Positions 43,566 to 55,610 of a DNA stretch of 63,948 bases are shown piece after piece. Both the position numbers and the translations under genes were made by a program. This DNA is from Actinokineospora spheciospongiae (lineage in GTDB: Bacteria; Actinomycetota; Actinomycetes; Mycobacteriales; Pseudonocardiaceae), in the NCBI RefSeq assembly GCF_000564855.1, contig NZ_AYXG01000155.1, forward strand, positions 1 through 63,948. Direction: 5' to 3'. The notes beneath the pieces are model-generated. The model worked only from the letters and a program-made list of their open reading frames with translations, was not told the origin of the DNA and searched no databases. The stretch's first letter is position 1; every line of letters begins with the position of its first letter.

Positions 43566-43693
43566 GATCACCCCGTCGCCTCCGGTCGACCCGTGACTGT
43601 TTCCGGCACCCGGGTCCGGGCCCGAGGCGTTCGCCTGGACGGCCCAATCTGGATCACTCATTCGAGTGGACGCACTTGTGCCCTTTGATCGAC

Positions 43694-43706
43694 AATGATT
43701 ATCATT
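43694..43706. promoter_or_regulatory. Fur/Zur-type operator palindrome on the -10 box
   Basis: A perfect 13-base palindrome, AATGATTATCATT, the most AT-rich spot in the area. It matches the core of actinobacterial Zur sites (AATGATTTTCA-type) at 10 of 11 positions in one direction and is Fur-box-like. TATCAT inside it (43700-43705) can act as the -10, with TTGTGC at 43676-43681 as -35 (18-base spacing). Bound repressor would block transcription of the operon beginning at 43743. Confidence 0.65.
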
Positions 43707-43742
43707 CCGCCCCGATCGGACATCGCCGAGCAAGGGAGCGAC

Positions 43743-44975
43743 GTGGGGCACCTGTTGATGGTCGAGAGCTGGGTGGGGGCGATGAGCTCCCTGCTCCCGC
43801 GGGCGATCCGGGAGGCCGGGGGGCGGTTCACGTTCCTCACCCGGGACCTGCACCACTACCTGCGCTCCGCCCCCGCCACCCCCCACCCGCTGCTCGCCGC
43901 CGACAACGTCCTGACCGCGGACACCAACGACCTCGGCACCCTCCTGCCCTACCTCGAACGGGTCCACGACGTCCTGGCCTTCGACGGGGTCATCACCTCC
44001 TGCGACTACTACCTGGAGACCGCCGCCCGCATCGCGCACCACCTGCGCCTGCCCGGTCCGGACCCCGACGCCGTCGACCGCGCCTACCGCAAGGACCTGA
44101 CCCGGCAGGCGCTGCCCGACCTCGGGCCCGCGTTCGCGCTGACCGAGACCGTCGAGGCCGCCCACGCCGAGGCCGAGCGGATCGGGTACCCGGTGGTGGT
44201 CAAGCCGGTCGACCTGTGCGCGGGCATGTTCGTGCGGGTGGCCGCCAACCCGGCTGAGCTGGCGGAGGCCGTCGAGGCGATCGAGGGCTTCCCGGTCAAC
44301 GCGCGCGGGCAGCGGCGCAACCCGTTGGTGCTGCTGGAGGAATTCCTTGACGGACCCGAGTTCAGCGTGGAGACGGTGACCTCCGGCGGGAACACCCACG
44401 TGGTCGGGGTGACCGACAAGTCCGTCACCGGCTCCCCCTGGTTCGTCGAGAGTGGACACATGTTCCCGGCCGACCTGCCGGAGGAGACCACCGCGCTGAT
44501 CGCGGCGACCGCGGTGGAAGCGGTGCGGCGGCTGGGGTTGGACCGGACCGTCGCGCACACCGAGATCAAGCTGACCGCCGCGGGTCCCCGGCTGGTCGAG
44601 GTGAACCCGCGCCCGGCGGGCAACCAGATCACCGAACTGGTGCGCCGCACCACCGGGATCGACCTGCCCATGGTCTACGCGCGCCTGGCGATGGGGGAGG
44701 ACCCGGACCTGCGCCACGTCGACACCGGGGCGCGCAGCGCGGCGATCGGCTTCCTGCTGCCCGAGCGGCCCGGGACGGTCGCGGCGATCGACGGGGTGGA
44801 CGCGCTGGGGCACGGCGACGTCGTCGACTGGGCCGTCAAGCCGGTGGGGCACGAGGCCGGGCCCGCCACCAGCAACAACCACTACCTGGGCCACGTCATG
44901 GTCGTCGACCGCGGGGCGGGCGCCCGGCGGCGGGCCGAGGAACTGGTCGGCGCCCTGTCGGTGACCTACTCGTGA
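43743..44975 (+). CDS. ATP-grasp carboxylate-amine ligase (L-amino-acid ligase-like)
   Basis: 410 residues from GTG 43743 after AAGGGA; an ATG at 43695 lies inside the operator and is less likely. ATP-grasp landmarks are YPVVVKPVDLCAGMFV, LLEEFLDGPEFSVETVTSGG and the metal site TEIKLTAAGPRLVEVNPRPAGNQI. The C-terminal part fits amino-acid ligases such as BacD-like enzymes, which join two amino acids or an acid and an amine through an acyl phosphate. First gene of the operon and probably the condensing step. Substrates unknown. Confidence 0.82.
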   Translation: MGHLLMVESWVGAMSSLLPRAIREAGGRFTFLTRDLHHYLRSAPATPHPLLAADNVLTADTNDLGTLLPYLERVHDVLAFDGVITSCDYYLETAARIAHHLRLPGPDPDAVDRAYRKDLTRQALPDLGPAFALTETVEAAHAEAERIGYPVVVKPVDLCAGMFVRVAANPAELAEAVEAIEGFPVNARGQRRNPLVLLEEFLDGPEFSVETVTSGGNTHVVGVTDKSVTGSPWFVESGHMFPADLPEETTALIAATAVEAVRRLGLDRTVAHTEIKLTAAGPRLVEVNPRPAGNQITELVRRTTGIDLPMVYARLAMGEDPDLRHVDTGARSAAIGFLLPERPGTVAAIDGVDALGHGDVVDWAVKPVGHEAGPATSNNHYLGHVMVVDRGAGARRRAEELVGALSVTYS

Positions 44976-45769
44976 ACCTCGACTCGCTGCTGCGGCGGGC
45001 GCTCGCCGGGGAGCTGGGCCCGGACCCGGCCGATCAGCGGGTGAGCGTCGGTTTCACCACCCGGCAGGGGGTCCGACACCCCGGCCGCGACGGGGGGTAC
45101 CGCAACGAGGTGGTCAGCCTGCGGGTCGGCGCGGCCGTGGGGTCGTGCGCGGTGGAACCGGGGCGCGTCACCGACGACGCGGTGTTCGAGTGCGTGGGCC
45201 GGTCCGTCGCGGAGCTGCTGGGGCACGCGGACCGCGCGGTGCGGGTGGCGGCGCTGGACGCGTACCTGATGGGCGTGCGCCCGCACGCGGAGGTGGCCGA
45301 GACCACCACGATCCCGGCGGGCGATTCGCTGGCGAAGTCGTTGCACCGGGCGGGAACGGTGGTGGACCTGCTCGCTCCGGCAGCGGGGCAGCGGGTCCTG
45401 GTCGTCGGTGTCGTCAACTCGCTGCTGCACCACCTGCGGCTGCGGCGGGTCGACTACACCCCCTGCGACCGCAAGGGCGGCACCACCGAGTGGGGCGAGC
45501 CGATCCTCACCGACGCGGCCAAGGGCCTCACCGACTGCGACGCGATCCTGGCCTCCGGCATGACCCTCGGCGACGACGGCGTGGACCTCCTGCTCGACCA
45601 CGCCCGCACCACCGGAATCCCGCTGGTGTTCTTCGCCCAGACCGGCAGCGCCGTGCTGCCCTGGTTCATCGGCGACGGCGCCACGGCCGTGTCCGCCGAG
45701 CCGTACCCGTTCTTCTGGCTCGACGGCGGCCCCACCCCGATCCACCGGTACCGGGCGGTGCCCGCGTGA
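44972..45769 (+). CDS. DUF364/DUF4213 putative heavy-metal-chelation domain protein
   Basis: 265 residues. The N-terminal half (VSVGFTTRQGVRHPGRDGGYRNE) is DUF4213-like. The C-terminal half is the Rossmann-like PF04016 fold: QRVLVVGVVNSLLHHLR, TDCDAILASGMTLGDDGVDLLLDHA. Families of this name are found beside metal uptake and molybdenum genes, and a metal- or chelate-binding role has been proposed from structure. A GTG overlaps the ligase stop by four bases. In this operon it could be an enzyme or a chaperone for the chelate; not established. Confidence 0.75.
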   Translation: MNLDSLLRRALAGELGPDPADQRVSVGFTTRQGVRHPGRDGGYRNEVVSLRVGAAVGSCAVEPGRVTDDAVFECVGRSVAELLGHADRAVRVAALDAYLMGVRPHAEVAETTTIPAGDSLAKSLHRAGTVVDLLAPAAGQRVLVVGVVNSLLHHLRLRRVDYTPCDRKGGTTEWGEPILTDAAKGLTDCDAILASGMTLGDDGVDLLLDHARTTGIPLVFFAQTGSAVLPWFIGDGATAVSAEPYPFFWLDGGPTPIHRYRAVPA

Positions 45770-46824
45770 ACGCGAACCCGGCACTGCTCGACCTGGTCGG
45801 CCGCACCCCGCTGGCCCGGATCACCACCCCGCTGCCGCACGAGCACCCCGGCTTCTGGGCGAAGCTGGAGTGCCTTGGCGCGGGCGGGATGAAGGCGCGC
45901 GCCGCCGTGTCCATGCTGCGCGCCGCCCGGACCAGGGGCGCGCTGCGCCCCGGCGCCACCGTCGTGGAGTCGACCAGCGGAACCCTCGGGCTCGGGCTGG
46001 CTTTTGCCGGTCAGGCGCTGGGGCACCCGGTGGTGCTGGTCGTCGACGACGAACTCGAACCCGCCATGCGGGCGATGCTGCGCGCGCACGGGGCGAAGCT
46101 GGAGGTCGTGCGCCGACCGCACCCCGAGGGCGGCTGGCAGCAGGCCCGGCTGGAGCGGGTGCACGCGGTGCTGGCCGAGCTGCCCGGGGCGTTCTGGCCC
46201 GACCAGTACAACAACCCGGACAACCCGGCCGGGTACGCCTCCCTGGCCACCGAACTGCTCGACCGCCTCGACCGCATCGACGTCCTGGTGTGCAGCGTCG
46301 GCACCGGCGGGCACAGCGCGGGCGTGGTGGCCGAGCTGCGCAGGCGGCGGCCGGGGGTGCGGCTGATCGGCGTCGACACCGTCGGCTCGACCATCTTCGG
46401 GCAGCCCGCGCTGCCCAGGGTCATGCGCGGGCTGGGCAGCAGCATCCACCCGCGCAACGTGGACTACCCGCAGTTCGACGAGGTGCACTGGCTGGGCCCG
46501 GTGGAGGTCGTCGACTCCTGCCGCAGGCTGGCCAGGGGCTCCTTCGTCACCGGCGGGTGGAGCACCGGGGCGGTGGCGCTGGTCGCGGCGTGGGCGGCGC
46601 GGGTGGAACCGTGGGCCGAGGTCGTCACGATCTTCCCCGACGGCGCGCACCGCTACCTGGACACGATCTTCGACGACGGGTTCTGCCGCGCCCGCGGGCT
46701 GTTCGGCAACCCCAGCGCGCACCCGGTGGAGGTGGCCGACCCGGCCGCGGTGACGGTGTCGGAGTGGGCCCGGTGCCGCGCGGTGGCCGACCCGCTCGCC
46801 GTGCGCGAGGCGGTGCCCGCGTGA
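45766..46824 (+). CDS. SbnA-like PLP-dependent synthase (cysteine-synthase fold)
   Basis: 352 residues. It closely follows the staphyloferrin enzyme SbnA: DLVGRTPLARI, the PLP-lysine region GGMKARAAVSML, ESTSGTLGLGLA, a GTGGHSAGV phosphate loop, DTVGSTIFGQPALPRVMRGLG, and TIFPDGAHRYLDTIFDDGF. SbnA makes an N-substituted 2,3-diaminopropionate from phosphoserine and glutamate. The usual Asn of the TSGN loop is Thr here, so substrate or chemistry may differ. No SbnB-like dehydrogenase follows. GTG overlaps the previous stop. Confidence 0.82.
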   Translation: MNANPALLDLVGRTPLARITTPLPHEHPGFWAKLECLGAGGMKARAAVSMLRAARTRGALRPGATVVESTSGTLGLGLAFAGQALGHPVVLVVDDELEPAMRAMLRAHGAKLEVVRRPHPEGGWQQARLERVHAVLAELPGAFWPDQYNNPDNPAGYASLATELLDRLDRIDVLVCSVGTGGHSAGVVAELRRRRPGVRLIGVDTVGSTIFGQPALPRVMRGLGSSIHPRNVDYPQFDEVHWLGPVEVVDSCRRLARGSFVTGGWSTGAVALVAAWAARVEPWAEVVTIFPDGAHRYLDTIFDDGFCRARGLFGNPSAHPVEVADPAAVTVSEWARCRAVADPLAVREAVPA

Positions 46825-47828
46825 AGCTGGTCTGGAGCACCCGGGAGCTGGTGCTGCGCGAGCCGTTCCGCATCTCCCGCTCGGTCATGGCCGGGCGGCA
46901 GGCGGTGGAGCTGACCCTGGAGCACGAGGGGCGGCTGGGCCACGGCGAGGTGGTGACCAGCGAGTACTTCCGCCTGGACGTCAACGGCATCGCCGCGGCG
47001 CTCACCGGCTGGCAGGGCGCCGTGGAGGCCGCGGCGACACCGGAGCAACTGCTCGACGCGCTGCCGCACGGGCCGCCCGGGGTGCGCGCCGCCGCCGACG
47101 CCGCGGTGCACGACCTGCTGGGCAAGCGGGCGGGGCTGCCCACGCACGCGCTGTTGGGCAGTCCGGAGTGGACGGCGGTGCCCACGGCCTACACGATCGG
47201 TTTGTCGTCGCCGCAGGACGCGGCGACCAAGGCGGAGGCCCTGGTGGCCAAGGGGTTCTCCGTCCTCAAGATCAAAGCGGGCGACGAGCACGACCTCGCC
47301 CGGCTGACCGCCGTCCGGGCCGCCGCCCCGGAGGCCCGGCTGCTGCTCGACCCCAACGGCGCCTGGACCCCCGAGCACACCGTGCGCTTCCTGGAGCGCA
47401 CCGCCGACCTGCTGCTCGACGCCGTGGAGCAGCCGATCGCCCCGGGCACCCCGGACCGCCTCGCCTGGGTCGGCGCCCGCTCCCCGGTGCCGCTGATCGC
47501 CGACGAGGACGCCAGCACCCTCGACGACGTGCGCGGGCTGGTCGGCGCCGTCGACGGCATCAACGTCAAGCTGGCCAAGTGCGGCGGCCTGCGGGCAGCC
47601 CGGGAGATCGTGACCGTCGCCCGCGGCGCCGGGATGGACGTCATGCTCGGCTGCCTGGTCGCCAGCTCGCTGGGCATCGCCCCGGCCGTGCAGCTCACCC
47701 CGCACGCCCGCTGGGTCGACCTCGACGGGCACCTGCTGCTGGCCCGCGACCCGTGGACCGGGCTCGGCGGCGAGGACGGCACGCTGCGGCTCAGCGGCCG
47801 GGCCGGCCTGGGGGTCGTCCGCCGATGA
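46821..47828 (+). CDS. enolase-superfamily epimerase (dipeptide-epimerase-like)
   Basis: 335 residues of the MLE/dipeptide-epimerase branch. Catalytic lysines are in K150-I-K152-AG. Metal-ligand segments are LLLDPNGAW, DAVEQPIAPG and PLIADEDAS, and the second catalytic lysine region is INVKLAKCGGL. The barrel ends with CLVASSLGIAPAVQL. Relatives invert alpha-carbons of L-Ala-L-Glu-type dipeptides or amino acids. Here it probably sets stereochemistry in the product of the neighbouring ligase and PLP enzyme. GTG overlaps the upstream stop. Confidence 0.83.
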   Translation: MKLVWSTRELVLREPFRISRSVMAGRQAVELTLEHEGRLGHGEVVTSEYFRLDVNGIAAALTGWQGAVEAAATPEQLLDALPHGPPGVRAAADAAVHDLLGKRAGLPTHALLGSPEWTAVPTAYTIGLSSPQDAATKAEALVAKGFSVLKIKAGDEHDLARLTAVRAAAPEARLLLDPNGAWTPEHTVRFLERTADLLLDAVEQPIAPGTPDRLAWVGARSPVPLIADEDASTLDDVRGLVGAVDGINVKLAKCGGLRAAREIVTVARGAGMDVMLGCLVASSLGIAPAVQLTPHARWVDLDGHLLLARDPWTGLGGEDGTLRLSGRAGLGVVRR

Positions 47829-49033
47829 GGCGCTTCCCCCCGGCCGTGCGGTTGCTGCTGGTCAACCAGTTCGGCGTCAACGCGGGCTTCTACCTGCTGA
47901 TCCCGTACCTGGCCACCTACCTCACCGAGGACATCGGGCTGACCATCGCCACCGTCGGCCTGGTGCTCGGGGCGCGCAACCTCAGCCAGCAGGGCCTGTT
48001 CCTGCTCGGCGGCACCGCCTCCGACCGGCTCGGCGCCCGCGGGGTGATCATCGCGGGCTGCGGCCTGCGGGCGGTGGGGTTCGGGCTGTTCGCCGTGGGG
48101 GAGTCGCTGCCGGTGCTGCTGGCCGCCGCCGTGCTCAGCGGGCTGGCCGGGGCGCTGTTCAACCCGGCGGTGCGCGCCTACATCTCCCTGGAGGTCGGGG
48201 AGGGGCAGCGGGCGGACGCGTTCGCGCTGTTCAACGTGTTCGCCCAGACCGGGGCCCTGGTCGGCCCGGTGCTCGGCGCGGCGCTGCTGCTCGTCGACTT
48301 CCGGGTCTCGGCCGTCGTGGCGGCCGGGATCTTCGCGGCGCTGACCGTCGCGCAGGCGCTGGTCCTGCCCGCCAGGGCCGTGCCGCCCGCGCAGGGGACG
48401 GTGTGGTCGGACGTGCGCGAGTGCCTGGGCAACAAGCGGTTCGTGGCGTTCACGCTGGCGCTGAGCGGGATGTTCGCGTTGCAGAACCAGCTCTACCTCG
48501 TCCTGCCGGTCGAGGCGCGCAGGCTGACCGGGACGCCCGCCTCGGTCGCGGCGCTGTTCATCGCCTCGACCGTGGTGACGCTGCTCGCGCAGGTGCGGAT
48601 CACCCGGGCGCTGGCCGACCGGCCGCGCGGGTGGTCGATCGCGCTCGGGCTGGTGCTGATGGGACTGGCGTTCGCCGCCCCGGCGCTGGCGTACCTGTGG
48701 CCGTCGCCGGGGGCGCTGTGGCCGGGGCTGGCGCCGGTGCTCGTCGCGGCGGTGCTGCTGGCGGTGGGGCTGGCGGTGGCCCAGCCGTTCGTCTACGAGC
48801 TGATCCCCGCCTTCGGCGCCGAGCGGGTCACCGGGACCTACTTCGGCGTGTTCTACCTCGGGTCCGGGGCGGTCGCGGCGGTCAGCACCGTGGTCGTCGG
48901 CTGGGCGGGGGAGGGCCGCCACGGCTGGGCGGCGTCGGTGCTGTGCCTGCTGCTCGGGATCGGCGGCGCGGTCGGCGTGCTGCTGCTGGACCGCCGAGGC
49001 GCGCTGGCGCCGCAACCGGAGAGGGTGGCATGA
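47825..49033 (+). CDS. MFS exporter, probable metallophore efflux
   Basis: 402 residues, 12 hydrophobic helices (MRRFPPAVRLLLVNQFGVNAGFYLLIPYLATYL; motif A as GGTASDRLGARGVI). Similar in size and place to CntE, the staphylopine exporter, but only the general MFS fold can be claimed. ATG overlaps the epimerase stop (ATGA). Its position between the biosynthesis genes and the importer suggests it secretes the product. Confidence 0.83.
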   Translation: MRRFPPAVRLLLVNQFGVNAGFYLLIPYLATYLTEDIGLTIATVGLVLGARNLSQQGLFLLGGTASDRLGARGVIIAGCGLRAVGFGLFAVGESLPVLLAAAVLSGLAGALFNPAVRAYISLEVGEGQRADAFALFNVFAQTGALVGPVLGAALLLVDFRVSAVVAAGIFAALTVAQALVLPARAVPPAQGTVWSDVRECLGNKRFVAFTLALSGMFALQNQLYLVLPVEARRLTGTPASVAALFIASTVVTLLAQVRITRALADRPRGWSIALGLVLMGLAFAAPALAYLWPSPGALWPGLAPVLVAAVLLAVGLAVAQPFVYELIPAFGAERVTGTYFGVFYLGSGAVAAVSTVVVGWAGEGRHGWAASVLCLLLGIGGAVGVLLLDRRGALAPQPERVA

Positions 49034-49830
49034 GCAACTTCCTGACCGACAACCCGGCCATCTACGAGCGGCAGTTCCCCGACCCCGAGCACCGCGCCGC
49101 CCGCTTCGCCCACGACGTGCTCGCCCGCTTCGGCGGCGCGCGGCCCCTGCGCATCCTGGACCTGGGCTGCGGCACCGGCCGCGACGCCGGGCACCTGGCC
49201 GCCCTCGGCCACGAGGTCGTCGGCCTGGACTCCTCGCGGGCCATGCTGGACCACGCCACCGAGCACCAGCCCGCCGCGACCTTCGTCGAGGGCGACCTGC
49301 GCGAGTTCGACCTCGGCCGCGAGTTCGACGCCATCACCTGCCTCGACAGCGCCCTGCTCTACTGCCACACCAACGACGACCTCAACGCCTGCCTCGACCG
49401 CTGCCACCGGCACCTGGCGCCCGGCGGGCTGCTCGTCGCCGAGATGCGCAACGGGGCGTTCTTCCTGGCCGGGACCCCCGGCAACACCGACCTCCTCGAC
49501 GGCACCCGCACCCGGACCGTGACCGTCGACGGCGTGCCGCACACCTCGCACACGAGGCTGTACCTCGACCACGCCGAGCAACTGCTGCGCAGGCACCGGG
49601 TCTGGGAGTGGCCAGGGCAGACCGAGCCGCTGGCCCAGGACTCCGCCTGGCGGCTGCTGTTCCCGCAGGAGCTGCGCGCCTTCTGCGACCGCGCGGGCTT
49701 CGACGTGCCCGCCCTGTTCGACAGCCCCGGACCCCGCACCGACGAGCCCTGGCGCGCCGACGCGCCGCTCTCCTCCGGCCTGACCGGCGACCGCCTGCAC
49801 CTGGTCGCCCGCAGGCGTCCCCACCGGTAA
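49030..49830 (+). CDS. class I SAM-dependent methyltransferase
   Basis: 266 residues. SAM site LRILDLGCGTGRDAGHLAALGHEVVGLDSS, acidic loop FVEGDLREFDL, then FDAITCLDSALLYCHTNDDL and LAPGGLLVAEM. The beta-rich C-terminal part (about 160-240) is common in small-molecule N- or O-methyltransferases. ATGA overlap with the exporter gene. May methylate a nitrogen or carboxylate of the operon's product; target not shown. Confidence 0.8.
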   Translation: MSNFLTDNPAIYERQFPDPEHRAARFAHDVLARFGGARPLRILDLGCGTGRDAGHLAALGHEVVGLDSSRAMLDHATEHQPAATFVEGDLREFDLGREFDAITCLDSALLYCHTNDDLNACLDRCHRHLAPGGLLVAEMRNGAFFLAGTPGNTDLLDGTRTRTVTVDGVPHTSHTRLYLDHAEQLLRRHRVWEWPGQTEPLAQDSAWRLLFPQELRAFCDRAGFDVPALFDSPGPRTDEPWRADAPLSSGLTGDRLHLVARRRPHR

Positions 49831-49840
49831 GGAAACCCCC

Positions 49841-51373
49841 ATGATCGACCGTCGTCTCTTCCTCGGCCTCACCGCCGGGGCGTCCCTGGCCGCCCTCACC
49901 GGGTGCGGCTCCTCCGACGCGGGCCCCGGGGGAGCCGCGGGTGAACCGCGCCGGGGCGGCAGGCTGCGCGCCGCCTTCGCGGGCGGCGGCGCCAAGGAGG
50001 TGCTGGACCCGCACCTGGCCAACCTGTTCGTCGAGGCGGCCCGGTCCAAGGCCCTCTACGACAAGCTCGCCGACCTCGGCGACGACGCCGCGCCGGTGCC
50101 CAGGCTGGCGGAGCGGTGGGAGCCCAGCGCGGACCTGACCCGCTGGCGGATCACCCTGCGCAAGGCGGTGTTCCACGACGGCAAGCCGGTGCGCCCGCAG
50201 GACGTGCTCGCCAGCTACGCCCGGATCATGGACCCCAAGCGCGCCTTCCGGGCCAAGGCGAGCCTGTCGCTGATCGACCTGGCCAACAGCCGCGCCGTCG
50301 ACGACCGGACCGTGGAGTTCGCGCTGACCAGGCCGTTCGCCGAGTTCCCCAACGCACTGGCGTCGTTCTCCGCGTACATCATCCCGGAATCCACTGAGGA
50401 CTTCACCAAGCCGGTCGGGTCCGGCCCCTTCCGCTTCGGCACGTTCACCCCGGGCCGTTCCACGCTGCTGACCCGCAACGCCGAGTATTGGGAGAACCCG
50501 CCGCACCTCGACGAACTGGAGTTCGTGCTCGCCAACGAGGAGTCGGCCCGGATCAACGCGCTGCTGGGCGGGCAGGTCGAGTACGCCCATGACCTGTCCC
50601 CGGTCACCGCCCGCAGCCACGAGGGCCGCGGCCTGTCGATCGTGCGCGCCCCCAACTCCGGCATGCAGGCGTTCGCCATGAAGGTCGACCGACCGCCGTT
50701 CGACAACCGCGACCTGCGCGAGGCGATGTTCCTGCTGACCGACCGCCAGCAGCTCGTCGACAGCACCCTGTCCGGCGCGGGCCAGGTCGGCAACGACCTG
50801 TTCGGCAAGGGCTTCAAGCACTACGCCGAGGACATCCCGCAGCGCACCCGCGACCTCGACCGGGCCAAGTGGCTGGTCGACCGCGCGGGCGCGCGGGGCC
50901 TGGCGGTGCGGCTGGACACCAGCACGGCCGCCACCGGCTTCGTCGAGGCCGCGACGGTGTTCGCCGAGCAGGCCCGCGCCGCGGGCCTGGACGTGCAGGT
51001 CGCGGTGGGCGACAAGGACACCTACTGGGCGAACTCGCTCAAGAACGGCTCGCTGACCAGCTTCCGCTCCGGCGCCATGCCGATCGAGACGCACATCTCC
51101 GGCCGCCTGCTGTCCTCGTCGACCACCAACACCACCAAGTGGACCCGCCCGGAGTTCGACGCCCTCTACGACAAGGCCGTGTCCACAACGGACGAATCCG
51201 CCCGCGCCGCGGCCTACGGCGAGATGCAGCGCGTCCTGCACGCCGAGGGCGGCTACCTCATCTGGGGCCAGGCCGACTGGATCGTCGGCACCTCGGCGAA
51301 GGTCGGCGGGGTCCGCACGGCACCGGCCAACACCCTGGACTGGGCCCGCTTCGACACGGTGTGGCTGGGGTGA
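49841..51373 (+). CDS. substrate-binding lipoprotein, SBP family 5 (nickel/peptide type)
   Basis: 510 residues. The twin-arginine-like/lipobox start RRLFLGLTAGASLAALTGC marks an exported lipoprotein with the lipidated Cys at about 26. The body has the SBP_bac_5 features LAERWEPSADLTRWRITLRKAVFHDGKPVRPQDVLASYARI, GSGPFRF and FDNRDLREAMFLLTDRQQLVD. The family includes NikA and CntA, which take up metal-chelate complexes. It would capture the loaded chelator outside and pass it to the next two genes. AAGGAAA lies before the ATG. Confidence 0.88.
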   Translation: MIDRRLFLGLTAGASLAALTGCGSSDAGPGGAAGEPRRGGRLRAAFAGGGAKEVLDPHLANLFVEAARSKALYDKLADLGDDAAPVPRLAERWEPSADLTRWRITLRKAVFHDGKPVRPQDVLASYARIMDPKRAFRAKASLSLIDLANSRAVDDRTVEFALTRPFAEFPNALASFSAYIIPESTEDFTKPVGSGPFRFGTFTPGRSTLLTRNAEYWENPPHLDELEFVLANEESARINALLGGQVEYAHDLSPVTARSHEGRGLSIVRAPNSGMQAFAMKVDRPPFDNRDLREAMFLLTDRQQLVDSTLSGAGQVGNDLFGKGFKHYAEDIPQRTRDLDRAKWLVDRAGARGLAVRLDTSTAATGFVEAATVFAEQARAAGLDVQVAVGDKDTYWANSLKNGSLTSFRSGAMPIETHISGRLLSSSTTNTTKWTRPEFDALYDKAVSTTDESARAAAYGEMQRVLHAEGGYLIWGQADWIVGTSAKVGGVRTAPANTLDWARFDTVWLG

Positions 51374-52308
51374 GGAACTACCTGGGCCGCCGCGCCCTCC
51401 TCGGCCTGGCACAGGTCCTCACCCTCGCCGTGGCGGTCTTCCTCCTGGTCGAAGCCCTCCCCGGGGACGCCGCCGTCGCCCTCGCGGGCGACGACCCGGA
51501 CCCGGGCCGGATCGAGCGCATCCGCGCGTCCCTCGGCCTCGACCGCCCGATCCTCGAGCGCCTCCTGGACTGGCTCACCGCCCTGGCCCACGGCGACCTG
51601 GGCACCTCGGTCGTGTCGGGCCGGGCGGTGACCGACATCATCGGCGCGGGCCTCGGCGTCACCGCCACCCTCGCCGGGGCGACGCTGGTCCTGCTGGTGC
51701 CGCTGGCGGTCGGCCTGGGCGTGCTCGCCGCCCGCCGCCCCGGCAGCAGGCTCGACCGCGGGCTGACGGCGGTGTTCATCGGCCTGCACGCCGTACCGGA
51801 GTTCGCCCTGGCGATCCTGCTGGTGGCGGTGTTCGGCATCGGCCTCGGGTGGCTGCCGCCCACCGCCGTGGGCGTGGACCCGCTGCTGGACCCGGTGGTG
51901 CTCCTGCTGCCGCTGGTCGTGCTCCTGGCCCGCCCGGTGTGCTCCATCAGCCGCCTGGTCCGCGCCTCGATGATCACGGCCAACGGCGCCGAGTACGTGC
52001 GCCACGCCCACCGCCTCGGCCTGTCCGGGCGGCGGGTCCGGCTCGCGCACGCCCTCCCCAACGCCCTGGCCCCCGCCGCGACCCAACTGGCCCGCACCAC
52101 CGACTGGCTGCTGGGCGGGGTGGTCGTGGTGGAAGCGGTGTTCGTCCTGCCCGGCGTCGGCACGGTCCTGGTGGACGCGGTGGCGGCGCGGGACCTCCCG
52201 GTGGTGCAGGGATTGGCGCTGCTGTTCGCCACCACGACGGTGACGGTGAACCTGATGGCTGACGCGCTGTCGTTTCGACTGGCGCCACGGGCGGGGGTGG
52301 GGGTGTGA
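51370..52308 (+). CDS. ABC importer permease, DppB/NikB type
   Basis: 312 residues, six helices. Start GTG 51370 overlaps the binding-protein stop. The N-terminus (VRNYLGRRALLGLAQVLTLAVAVFLLVEALPGDAA) and the coupling segment RLVRASMITANGAEYVRHAHRLGLSGRRVRLAHALPNALAPAATQLA are the DppB pattern. Pairs with the DppC domain of the next gene. TGATG overlap downstream. Confidence 0.88.
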   Translation: MRNYLGRRALLGLAQVLTLAVAVFLLVEALPGDAAVALAGDDPDPGRIERIRASLGLDRPILERLLDWLTALAHGDLGTSVVSGRAVTDIIGAGLGVTATLAGATLVLLVPLAVGLGVLAARRPGSRLDRGLTAVFIGLHAVPEFALAILLVAVFGIGLGWLPPTAVGVDPLLDPVVLLLPLVVLLARPVCSISRLVRASMITANGAEYVRHAHRLGLSGRRVRLAHALPNALAPAATQLARTTDWLLGGVVVVEAVFVLPGVGTVLVDAVAARDLPVVQGLALLFATTTVTVNLMADALSFRLAPRAGVGV

Positions 52309-55058
52309 TGTCCGGAGTGGAGGGTGCCGGTCCCGGTGGTCGGGACCGGTCGGGTGCTCGTCCGGCGGATGGTGAGGGGAGCGTGGTCGACGTGGCTGCC
52401 GGGCCTGCCGTCGAGGTGCGCGCGGCGGGCACCGGTGTCGCCGGTGCGGGCGGGGAGGGTGCGGCCGGCGGACTCCCTGTTGCCGCCGATGCCGTTGGAG
52501 TTGAGGCGGGATCTGGTGGCGCGGGTGATGTCGGCGGCGCTGGCGGGGGTGTTGTCGGCGGCGCAGGTGCGGCTGATGGGCTTGCTGCTGCCGCGCGGTC
52601 GGTGGGTGTCGGTGGTGCGGGCGTGGTTGGCGCCGGGTCTGCCGTTCCGGGTGCTGTCGGCGCGGGTGGTGCATGCGCTGCCGGTGGGAGTGCTGTTGGT
52701 CGCACCGGTGGGGGTGAGGGTGCGGCTGGTGGGACTGTGGGTGGCGTGGGCTCCGGCGATGCCACCGGCACAGGTGCGGGCTTTGTGGGCGCCGCTGGGG
52801 TGAGTGCTGTCGGTTCTGGTGGTGCCCGGGCGGGTGGGGGCGGTCGGGTGAAGCGCGTTGTCCCCCTGGTGCTGGTGGGGGTGCCGTTGCTGGTGGCCGT
52901 GTTCGGGCCGCTGTTCGTCGGGGAGGCTTCGCGGTCGGTGGCGTTTTCCACCGGGGGGCTGCTGGGGACCGACTTCGTCGGGCGGGACGTGCTCCAGCAG
53001 GTGTTGCTGGGCGGGCGGACCGTGGTGCTGGTGGCGCTGGTGGCCACCGGGCTGGCCTACGCGCTGGGGATTCCGTTGGCGCTGGTGGCCGCGACCTCGC
53101 GCAGGCGGTGGGTGGACGAGGTGCTCATGCGCCCGCTGGACCTGGTGCTGGCCGTGCCCTCCCTGCTCGTCCTGGTGCTGGTGGCCGGGCTCAGCTCGCC
53201 GGGCTCCGTGACGCTGGTGGGGGTCGTGGTGGTGGTGCTGGTGCCGGAGGTGGCCAGGGTGGTGCGGGCGGCCGCGCTGCCCGCCGCGTCCGGGCCGGTG
53301 GTGGAGGCCATGCGGATGCAGGGGGAGGGGTGGTGGCGGACCTCCGGCGGGTACGTGGGGCGGTCCGTGCTGCCCACCGTGGTCGCCGACCTCGGCGTGC
53401 GGTTCACCTCCTCGGTGTACCTGGTGGCCTCGGCCGCGTTCCTGGGCGTCGGCGTGGCCCCGGACGCCTCGGACTGGGCGGTGATGGTGGACCGCAACCA
53501 GGGTGGGAGCTACCTGGTGCCCTGGGCGGTCGTCGTCCCCGCCCTGCTGATCGTGTCCCTGTCCGTCGGCGTCAACCTCCTCTTCGACGCCCACTCCACC
53601 GCCGTCCCGCGCACCCTGCCCGACGACCCCGCCGTCACCCCGCCCGCGGGCACGCCGATCCCCGCCACCCCGCCTGTGGACAACCCGGCGTCGAGCGGCG
53701 GATCGCGTCAGACCCCCGCGGTTGGATCGATTCGGGGGCCCCAGCGCACGGATGATCTTGCGGGCAGCGGGCTCGCGGCCCGGGTGCGCGACCTCCGCGT
53801 GGTCGTCGACGGCCGCCCGGTCGTGGACGGGGTGAGCTTCGAGCTGCCCGCCGGGAAAGTCCTCGCCCTGGTCGGGGAGTCCGGCAGCGGCAAGACCACC
53901 ACCGCGCTCGCCCTCCTCGGCGAGGCGCCCGGTGACGTCCACGGCGAGGTCGCCACCGCCGGGTTCGTGGGGTTCGTGCCGCAGCACCCCTCGACGGTGC
54001 TCAACCCCGTGCGCCGGATCGGCGGTGTGCTGCGGGAGGTCGTCCGCGCCCGCAAGCCGGGGACCGACCCCGGTCCCGTGGTCCGCGACGTCCTCACCCG
54101 GGTCGGTCTGGACCCCACGTGGGGGTTCCGCCGCAGGCTGCCGCACCAGCTCTCCGGTGGGCAGCAGCAGCGGCTGGTGCTGGCCCAGACCCTCATCGGC
54201 GACCCGGCCGTGGTGATCGCCGACGAGCCGACCACCGGGCAGGACGCGCTGAGCCGGGGCGAGGTGGCCGCGCAGCTCAAGGGGCTCGCCGACCGCGGTG
54301 TCGGCGTCCTGCTCCTGTCGCACGATCTCGACCTGGTCGACGAACTCGCCGACGACGTCCTCACCCTGCACGCGGGCGTCCCCACCGAGGCCCGCCCGCC
54401 CGAGCCCGCCCCGACCCCCGCCCCCAAGCCGCCGCTCACCGGGCCGACCGTGCTCACCGTCGACGGCCTCAGCGTCGGCTACCGGGGCAACCGCGTGCTC
54501 GACGGTGTCAGCCTCCGGTTGGCCGGGGACGAGTGCGTGGCCATCACCGGGCGCTCCGGGCAGGGCAAGACCACCCTCGCCCGCGCCATCGCCGGGTTGC
54601 ACCGCCCCAGCGCGGGCACCATCACCGTCGACGGCGGCGTGCAGTACGTCTTCCAGGACGCCCGCCTGTCCTTCGACGACCGCAGGCCCGTGCTCGACCA
54701 GGTCGCCCGCACCGCCGTGCGCCTGCGCGGGCTGTCCACACCGGACGCGCGGGACGAGGCCGCCGCCCTGCTGCGCACCCTCGGCCTCGACCCGGCCACC
54801 GCGGCCCGGCGGCCCGGCGCGCTCTCCGGGGGCGAGCTGCGGCGGGCCGCGCTGGCCAGGGCGCTGCTGGCGCGACCGCGCGTCCTGGTGTGCGACGAGA
54901 TCACCGCGGGCCTCGACGCCCGCACCCGGCGGGTGGTGCTCGACCACCTCGCCGACCTGGACCTGGCCCTGGTCGTGGTGACCCACGACGAGGCCGCGGT
55001 CGCCCGACTGGCCGACCGCACCCTGGCCGTCCAGGAGGGCGGCCTGCACAACCGGTAG
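52308..55058 (+). CDS. fused DppC permease and two ABC ATPases with Gly/Ala-rich N-terminus
   Basis: 916 residues from ATG 52308 (TGATG overlap). Residues 2-180 are almost only Gly, Ala and Val with many T-ending codons. From V181 (52848) comes a DppC-type permease: GTDFVGRDVLQQVLLGGRTV, EAMRMQGEGWWRTSGGYVGRSVLPTV. Two ATPases follow: Walker A GESGSGKT near 523 with LSGGQQQRL and IADEPTTG, and GRSGQGKT near 748 with LSGGELRRAALA and VCDEITAGLD. Normally three separate proteins (DppC, DppD, DppF). If the GTG at 52848 is used instead, the low-complexity part is untranslated. Confidence 0.82.
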   Translation: MSGVEGAGPGGRDRSGARPADGEGSVVDVAAGPAVEVRAAGTGVAGAGGEGAAGGLPVAADAVGVEAGSGGAGDVGGAGGGVVGGAGAADGLAAAARSVGVGGAGVVGAGSAVPGAVGAGGACAAGGSAVGRTGGGEGAAGGTVGGVGSGDATGTGAGFVGAAGVSAVGSGGARAGGGGRVKRVVPLVLVGVPLLVAVFGPLFVGEASRSVAFSTGGLLGTDFVGRDVLQQVLLGGRTVVLVALVATGLAYALGIPLALVAATSRRRWVDEVLMRPLDLVLAVPSLLVLVLVAGLSSPGSVTLVGVVVVVLVPEVARVVRAAALPAASGPVVEAMRMQGEGWWRTSGGYVGRSVLPTVVADLGVRFTSSVYLVASAAFLGVGVAPDASDWAVMVDRNQGGSYLVPWAVVVPALLIVSLSVGVNLLFDAHSTAVPRTLPDDPAVTPPAGTPIPATPPVDNPASSGGSRQTPAVGSIRGPQRTDDLAGSGLAARVRDLRVVVDGRPVVDGVSFELPAGKVLALVGESGSGKTTTALALLGEAPGDVHGEVATAGFVGFVPQHPSTVLNPVRRIGGVLREVVRARKPGTDPGPVVRDVLTRVGLDPTWGFRRRLPHQLSGGQQQRLVLAQTLIGDPAVVIADEPTTGQDALSRGEVAAQLKGLADRGVGVLLLSHDLDLVDELADDVLTLHAGVPTEARPPEPAPTPAPKPPLTGPTVLTVDGLSVGYRGNRVLDGVSLRLAGDECVAITGRSGQGKTTLARAIAGLHRPSAGTITVDGGVQYVFQDARLSFDDRRPVLDQVARTAVRLRGLSTPDARDEAAALLRTLGLDPATAARRPGALSGGELRRAALARALLARPRVLVCDEITAGLDARTRRVVLDHLADLDLALVVVTHDEAAVARLADRTLAVQEGGLHNR

Positions 55059-55070
55059 AAGGATCAACCC

Positions 55071-55610
55071 ATGCGCTACGACCTGCGCCAAGCCCGCCCG
55101 GACGACCTCGACGGCGCCCGCTCGGTCATCCTCGACACGCTCTACCGCGACCTGGGCTACGGGTACACCCCCGCCTGGCACGGCGACGTCATCGACCTCG
55201 AGGGCGCCTACCTGCGCACCCCCCGGCACGCGCTGTTCGTCGCCGCGCTGACCCACGACGACGGCCGCGAGGAGGTGGTGGCGACCACCGCCGTCCGGGC
55301 GGTCGCCCCGACCAGCCCGCCGCACCCGGCCTGGCTGGCCGAGCGCTACCCGGCGGGGCGCACCGCGCAGCTCTTCCGCGTCTACGTGCGCCCCGAGCAC
55401 CGCAGGCACGGGCTGGCCAGGGGCCTGGTCGACCTGGCCACCCGGTTCGTCGCCGAGACCCCCGGCTACGACGTGCTCTGCCTGCACACCGACACCCGGG
55501 TCGAGGGCGCCGAGGGGTTCTGGCGGTCGGTGGCCAAGGAGATCCACGACGCCCGCGACGGCGACCCCGCCCGGTTCCAGACCGTCCACTTCGAGATCCC
55601 CTTCGGCTGA
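55071..55610 (+). CDS. GNAT-family N-acetyltransferase
   Basis: 179 residues. Acetyl-CoA loop is VYVRPEHRRHGLARGLVDLATR; earlier parts are RQARPDDLDGARSVILDTLY and RYPAGRTAQLFR. Thirteen bases after the transporter gene with AAGGA before the ATG, so the last gene of the operon. It may acetylate the product or protect against it; not shown. Confidence 0.82.
   Translation: MRYDLRQARPDDLDGARSVILDTLYRDLGYGYTPAWHGDVIDLEGAYLRTPRHALFVAALTHDDGREEVVATTAVRAVAPTSPPHPAWLAERYPAGRTAQLFRVYVRPEHRRHGLARGLVDLATRFVAETPGYDVLCLHTDTRVEGAEGFWRSVAKEIHDARDGDPARFQTVHFEIPFG

Follow-up and report, generated by a model that had tools for sequence, protein, structure and literature searches.

Organization of the operon

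The window analysed here, a stretch of 63,948 nt from Actinokineospora spheciospongiae, contains an operon of ten genes at positions 43690–55610 (Table 1). The ten genes named in an earlier note on this sequence are all present, as open reading frames with family profile matches. Their description as one run of overlapping genes applies to most junctions, where the overlap is 4 bp, but two junctions are gapped, namely methyltransferase/SBP (10 bp) and ATPase/GNAT (12 bp). The start of permease 1 was picked by hand; from the GTG at 51370 the gene overlaps the SBP stop codon by 4 bp. The operon is flanked on one side by a TrmH-type gene and on the other by pheS; both flanks were named by eye, and A. 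pegani (L046) has homologues of both in a similar arrangement. Actinokineospora sp. PR83 has a protein with 94% identity to the DUF364 protein of the window.

Two gene starts required attention. The ATG at 43695, proposed in the earlier note as the start of the ATP-grasp gene, falls inside the upstream palindrome, and the relatives point to the GTG at 43743 instead: projected on 80 relatives, this start corresponds to GTG in 73 cases, ATG in 5, TTG in 1 and unread bases in 1. With the gene starting at 43743, the predicted operator sits 34–53 bp upstream. Third-position GC is 0.96–0.99 in all operon genes, except for the 5′ part of the open reading frame 52305–55058. Because this 540-bp low-complexity part (52305–52844) has a third-position GC of 0.59, as compared with 0.96 for the remainder, and is missing from the relatives L046 and L055, permease 2 probably starts near the GTG at 52848, in a reading frame that opens at 52305. 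The stretch between the two permease genes is thus probably non-coding in that frame. It contains a 24-bp imperfect tandem repeat at 52517–52578.

Table 1. Predicted operator and genes of the operon (positions in the window)
Feature	Position	Strand	Basis
Zur operator (predicted)	43690..43709	+	Conserved box, published consensus
ATP-grasp ligase, L-amino acid ligase type (LAL_C2)	43743..44975	+	Profile matches; nearest solved structure 3vot (BL00235)
DUF364 protein, enolase-N-like + Rossmann-like fold; putative second core enzyme	44972..45769	+	Profile, model
SbnA-like PLP enzyme, subfamily distinct from SbnB-partnered SbnA	45766..46824	+	Profiles, structure alignment, tree
Enolase-superfamily racemase/epimerase, nearest DgcA and L-Ala-D/L-Glu epimerases	46821..47828	+	Catalytic residues aligned
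MFS exporter (by family)	47825..49033	+	Profile matches
SAM-dependent methyltransferase	49030..49830	+	Profile matches; 71/80 class-1 loci
SBP_bac_5 lipoprotein-like binding protein	49841..51373	+	Profile matches
ABC permease 1	51370..52308	+	Profile matches, start by hand
ABC permease 2 fused to two ATPase domains	52848..55058	+	Profile matches; ORF opens 52305
GNAT acetyltransferase	55071..55610	+	Profile; 45/80 class-1, 3/13 class-2 loci

Family assignments of the encoded proteins

The ligase matches the ATP-grasp and LAL_C2 profiles above the Pfam cut-offs (76.9 and 51.7 bits). Its best solved relatives are L-amino acid ligases, with BL00235 (3vot) nearest and BacD also near; it scores with dapdiamide A synthase too and stays under the NCBIfam equivalog cut-offs. 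The DUF364 protein scores 20.4 with PF04016, below the gathering score of 23; among the matches listed, most of its 120 relatives carry this domain. Its model (pLDDT 95.2) matches both solved DUF364 proteins, 3l5o and 3npg, including the two-domain fold, although the identity is only about 15–19%. We know of no reaction established for this family. The authors of the 3l5o structure, in a passage of their article, proposed an enzymatic role in chelator making (PMC2954201).

Among solved structures, the SbnA-like synthase is nearest to SbnA of S. aureus from staphyloferrin B synthesis (5d84–5d87), with the PLP lysine aligned. It scores 252.6 with the SbnA equivalog model TIGR03945, for which the cut-off is 349.95, and the active-site strings of SbnB-partnered SbnA differ from its own. 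Family profiles detected no SbnB partner among the ten operon proteins, and the best match to the SbnB family in the strain's own genome has an E-value of 8.6e-13. SbnA proteins encoded next to SbnB (17 of the 20 loci examined with such a neighbour) are 33–38% identical to the window synthase. The epimerase is nearest to 3iji and 4gfi; a KxK motif, D/E/D and a second K, picked by eye, are aligned, and we take them to be the catalytic and metal-ligand residues. DgcA and the L-Ala-D/L-Glu epimerases are its best solved relatives, but the enzyme remains under the NCBIfam equivalog cut-offs (245.3 versus 400 for DgcA). The MFS protein obtains its best score, under the cut-off, with a multidrug model, and the importer family SBP5 includes binders of ordinary peptides.

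Distribution and gene content of class-1 operons

A scan of a genome collection returned 285 relatives; the best 80 of 285 were kept as the class-1 set, and modules were called by score thresholds. In this set, the hosts are Streptomyces, Kitasatospora, Micromonospora, Actinoplanes, Nonomuraea, Frankia, Saccharothrix, Lentzea, Saccharopolyspora and others. The gene-neighbourhood search that the earlier note had suggested revealed almost complete co-occurrence of the four enzymes in the best 80 of 285: the ATP-grasp ligase and the DUF364 protein in all 80 loci, the SbnA-like synthase in 79 and the epimerase in 78. The remaining modules are also well conserved (MFS 76, methyltransferase 71, SBP 72, permeases 71 and 73, ATPases 73 and 70, each of 80), with the GNAT protein being present in 45. 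Altogether, 66 of the 80 loci carry all eleven modules, GNAT not counted, whereas each of the 14 incomplete loci is devoid of some transporter or methyltransferase module. Five of the latter are short loci ending at a contig edge (L060, L077, L099, L110, L116), L051 contains unread bases and L121 runs to the end of the stretch; L050, L056, L072, L082, L083, L114 and L117 look like true reductions. L114 and L117 have kept the ligase, DUF364 and SbnA-like genes while the exporter and importer modules are gone, and L050 and L072 show internal losses. Within the family to which the window belongs, DUF364 matches (E ≤0.001) occur in 63 of 150 genomes.

A conserved Zur-type box

The Fur-family palindrome described in the earlier note is real, and it can be narrowed to Zur, since positions 43690–43704 match the published actinobacterial Zur box TGANAANNNTTNTCA, as given in a passage of PMC5472717, with one mismatch. 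Upstream regions were compared for 78 of the 80 relative loci and the window, with L051 (unread bases) and L073 (no sequence) left out. With up to two mismatches, the published box was found in 74 of these 79 class-1 regions, versus 17 of 1,580 shuffled regions and 6 of 779 random stretches. A conserved box lies ahead of the ligase gene in 78 of the 79 regions, with matrix scores of 18.1–45.9 (median 34.0), as compared with 8.3 for the best of 395 shuffled controls; in the class-1 locus L098 the Zur-type matrix detected no site. The site of the window scores 20.9 and is the second weakest of the 78. The window site served as the seed of the matrix, which was then scored on its own training sequences; the independent test is the one with the published consensus.

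In the strain's own genome, the Zur pattern (up to two mismatches) has six matches at five places, whereas the backward-read control has none. Besides the present operon, these places are a ZnuA gene, another gene encoding a ZnuA domain, an HTH gene, and a gene that follows ABC transporter genes (named by eye) and has no match in Pfam. The matrix marks two further regions. One is the L28/L31 intergenic region (17.3), with S14 and S18 following L28; the other (16.3) lies ahead of an ArsR-type gene with a Fur-family gene behind it. The control maxima were −10.9 for the other L28 locus and −12.3 and 4.6 for two other Fur-gene loci. From our own reading of the sequences, we take the ribosomal paralogues behind the Zur-type site to be zinc-free forms. 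The earlier note had proposed a Zur/Fur-type operator and a chelator probably for zinc, and control by zinc is now well supported, because the box precedes nearly all class-1 operons and sites of the same type occur in the own genome at znuA, at the ribosomal-protein paralogues and at the Fur-family gene.

At two of the own-genome places (L149 and L150, on G000:C205), the Zur-type sites precede a ZnuA-domain gene and a gene for a large protein that looks secreted and has no Pfam match. ABC transporter genes are close by, and the arrangement resembles an anchored-repeat metal transport cluster. At another one (L146, G000:C21:9584–9602), the Zur-like site lies at the 5′ end of the gene call for an HTH/DUF5753 protein and may be due to chance.

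A sister class under a cobalamin riboswitch

The 150 genomes of the window's family also contain thirteen loci of a sister class, termed class 2 here, which is new. The DUF364 proteins of these loci are 52–57% identical to that of the window. DUF364, SbnA-like synthase and MFS genes are present in all 13 loci, but the ligase, epimerase and methyltransferase were found in none of them. Each of the 13 has a cobalamin riboswitch (Rfam, 85–103 bits; cut-off 31.5) that lies 180–271 bp ahead of the DUF364 gene on the same strand. The Rfam analysis further covered 10 class-1 loci plus the window, and 19 of the 21 class-3 loci described below. Over 20-kb stretches, the Zur matrix revealed no promoter Zur box in the 13 loci; the top score was 13.8, in two near-identical loci and about 2 kb off, and the others reached at most 6.3. 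A query with class-2 DUF364 across 396 genomes of the phylum (E ≤1e-30) retrieved the own genome and five genomes of one other family, and none of these five new matches belongs to class 2. In the genomes covered, class 2 thus occurs in the window's family only.

An SBP5 importer adjoins seven of the 13 operons. For three of the six operons lacking it (G079, G137, G129), the rest of the genome was searched, and in all three an importer is encoded elsewhere behind a cobalamin riboswitch of its own. These three SBP5 proteins are 60–80% identical to the seven class-2 SBPs, versus 43–49% to 13 class-1 SBPs, and fall into the class-2 clade with 100/100 support. Two permease genes come next in each case; ATPase homologues were detected beside them for one importer but not for the other two. 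A survey of riboswitches in five genomes (26 loci read) compared ten downstream proteins with NCBIfam, yielding the three SBP5 proteins, two MetE, a ribonucleotide reductase, CobN, a cobaltochelatase-type ATPase, a NiCoT-type transporter (above the Pfam cut-off) and a Peripla_BP_2 protein. Class-2 operons stand behind four other riboswitches.

Cobalt supply is a known target of B12 riboswitches, according to a passage of PMC7689651, and the location of such a riboswitch before biosynthesis, export and import genes together fits cobalt supply. These observations suggest that class 2 fetches cobalt with the same chemistry. Cobalt is what we infer, because the riboswitch responds to B12 rather than to cobalt and is also found ahead of substitute enzymes, such as MetE.

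Class 3, phylogeny and active sites

Class 3 (L027–L045, L191 and L192) combines a DUF364 protein of about 36–44% identity with an SbnA-like partner of about 30% identity, which passed the threshold used in 20 of the 21 loci. Again in 20 of the 21 loci, the 20-kb stretch holds a Zur-type site scoring at least 16.8, at a distance from DUF364 of no more than about 6 kb. A GHMP kinase and a FecCD-type permease were identified in one locus, L027. Relatives of one class-3 member are mostly from Streptomyces among the 120 matches listed. Class 3 is possibly a second zincophore class or of the EDDS kind. In L042, a DUF364/SbnA-like pair of the class-3 type adjoins an SBP5 importer, with a Zur-type site scoring 21.5.

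Class 2 forms one clade in both the DUF364 tree (98/96) and the SbnA tree (99/100). Class 3 likewise forms one clade, and the SbnB-partnered SbnA proteins form another that is set apart. Class 1 is a single clade in the DUF364 tree (99/89); in the SbnA tree, it requires two changes, with class 2 branching inside a poorly resolved part of class 1. Active-site positions were compared in 15 class-1 proteins (including the window), 13 of class 2, 11 of class 3 and 9 SbnB-partnered ones. Classes 1 and 2 share the strings MKxRxA, SSGTL or TSGTL, QYxNPxN, VCSVGTGGHSAG and GGWSxG, unlike class 3 and the SbnB-partnered SbnA. The shared strings point to the same first reaction, and classes 1 and 2 probably both begin with it rather than with the Dap route.

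Proposed function and alternative explanations

Very probably, the operon serves to produce, release and take up again a small metal-carrying molecule under zinc shortage, as predicted from its genes and promoter, and we estimate the probability that it is a Zur-repressed zinc metallophore (zincophore) system at roughly 80%. The earlier note had proposed a metallophore operon that includes an exporter and an importer of its own, and the conserved set of biosynthesis, export and import genes, together with a sister class that has the same core, strengthens this proposal. One clade has the core behind a site for a zinc repressor, another has the same core behind a B12 switch, and each comes with an exporter and an importer clade of its own, a pattern that would make little sense if the product did not carry metal.

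In the proposed mechanism, Zur would leave the operator when zinc is short, and the genes would be read. The SbnA-like PLP enzyme would join an activated serine and a nucleophile to a C-N bonded amino acid adduct, on which the DUF364 protein would perform the next step. The family is united by this core pair. For the zinc class, three further enzymes would enlarge the product: the ATP-grasp ligase would add an amide bond, the enolase-type enzyme would invert a stereocentre and the methyltransferase would methylate the product, with the order and substrates of these three steps being conjectural. The MFS protein would export the compound, and the SBP and the permease/ATPase proteins would return the metal complex to the cell. 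Perhaps the GNAT protein modifies the compound for metal release or protection. Judging by the enzyme families, the product might be a dipeptide or an aminocarboxylate.

A product of a known class, namely an aminopolycarboxylic acid of the EDDS/EDHA kind, appears unlikely to us. The SbnA-like enzyme would fit such a product, as would the Zur control of EDDS in Amycolatopsis japonicum (passages of PMC6103462 and PMC13379591), the S. scabiei EDHA locus of about 11 kb (scab_5231–scab_5311, according to part of PMC8914351; nine genes if the tags step by ten, versus 9–10 genes in 12 kb in the window) and the EDHA operon of four genes, AesA–AesD (PMC10702961, in part), given the four adjoining enzymes of the window. 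However, the same passages of PMC10702961 call EDHA iron-responsive and name Corynebacterium, Nocardia and Burkholderia as genera for which it has been reported or predicted, whereas the class-1 operons carry the Zur-type box and the class-2 DUF364 query found so few genomes across the phylum. The SbnB-partnered SbnA proteins, moreover, are distant from the window synthase and form a separate clade. Presumably, SbnB is a marker of the aes type. Neither EDDS nor EDHA is known to contain an amide, so that the amino acid ligase would be left unexplained.

Substitute proteins, too, are placed under Zur and B12 switches. The operon might thus swap a zinc-dependent step (in class 2, a B12-dependent one) for zinc-free or B12-free enzymes and import a nutrient, an explanation in line with the Zur-type sites before the ribosomal-protein paralogues and the B12 riboswitches before MetE and ribonucleotide reductase in class-2 genomes. 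It accounts neither for the retention of the MFS gene in 76 of the 80 class-1 loci (best 80 of 285) and in all 13 class-2 loci, nor for an importer under the same switch and one core under zinc and B12 signals, and we consider it quite improbable. The slimmest chance is given to an operon that makes an antibiotic or signal of a dipeptide-like kind, is expressed in step with zinc and takes up peptides in general through its importer. The similarity of the ligase to L-amino acid ligases, BacD and dapdiamide A synthase, the multidrug model matched by the MFS protein under its cut-off, and the frequent binding of peptides by SBP5 proteins are all compatible with it, but the importer clade agrees with the biosynthesis class and the switch, and a core without the ligase is kept under the B12 switch.

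Taken together, the DUF364/SbnA-like pair looks like a metallophore core with interchangeable metal control, zinc in the present operon and probably cobalt in class 2. In its broadest form, we see about an even chance that this pair is the core of a new actinobacterial class of small metallophores in which the switch and the added enzymes set the metal: Zur, with ligase, epimerase and methyltransferase, would yield a zincophore, as in the present operon, and a cobalamin riboswitch over the bare core, exporter and importer would yield a dedicated cobalt metallophore. Few biosynthetic routes to zinc metallophores are known. To our knowledge, no dedicated cobalt metallophore has been described, and class 2, if the proposal is true, would be the first. 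In the main text of a 2021 review on cobalt for B12, the words 'metallophore' and 'siderophore' do not occur (PMC7689651). A two-enzyme core under two independent metal signals gives DUF364 a testable biochemical task, adjacent SbnA-like and DUF364 genes provide a handle for genome mining, and the presence of the operon in many Streptomyces and relatives brings culture tests within reach.

Comparison with known systems

In the open-access literature searched, we found no description of a locus with this enzyme set, in agreement with the earlier note, and the families that it had listed as missing (CntL, CntM, SbnB, NRPS and NIS synthetase) were indeed not found among the profile matches of the ten proteins. 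An NIS or NRPS system was rejected, as the operon has no IucA/IucC or NRPS domains; a gene for an IucA/IucC-type siderophore synthetase lies elsewhere in the own genome (G000:C102:2350–3081, L227). An opine-type system was likewise rejected, as neither a CntM-like opine dehydrogenase nor the CntL-like nicotianamine synthase family was found among the ten proteins. Elsewhere in the own genome (C138:126647–127915; L226, L228), an opine dehydrogenase of the staphylopine type (651.7 bits) is encoded about 6 kb from the Zur-marked L28 gene; therefore, the strain may make two zinc metallophores.

EDDS has Zur control in common with the operon, a likeness by description rather than by comparison of gene sets. 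EDHA, also set against the operon by description, is similar in size and gene number but is called iron-responsive. CntE is an MFS exporter, and the staphylopine locus is Zur-controlled. The staphylopine-type cntKLM loci resemble the operon in having racemase-type and backbone enzymes, an MFS-type exporter, an SBP5-type ABC importer and zinc control, but differ from it in their nicotianamine-synthase-like and opine dehydrogenase genes. The roles of CntK, CntL and CntM and the transporter types are described in passages of PMC7438024, according to which opine zincophore loci use oligopeptide-type or FecCD-type importers. The operon shares with these loci the combination of an exporter and an oligopeptide-type importer, which is a likeness of function, not of membership.
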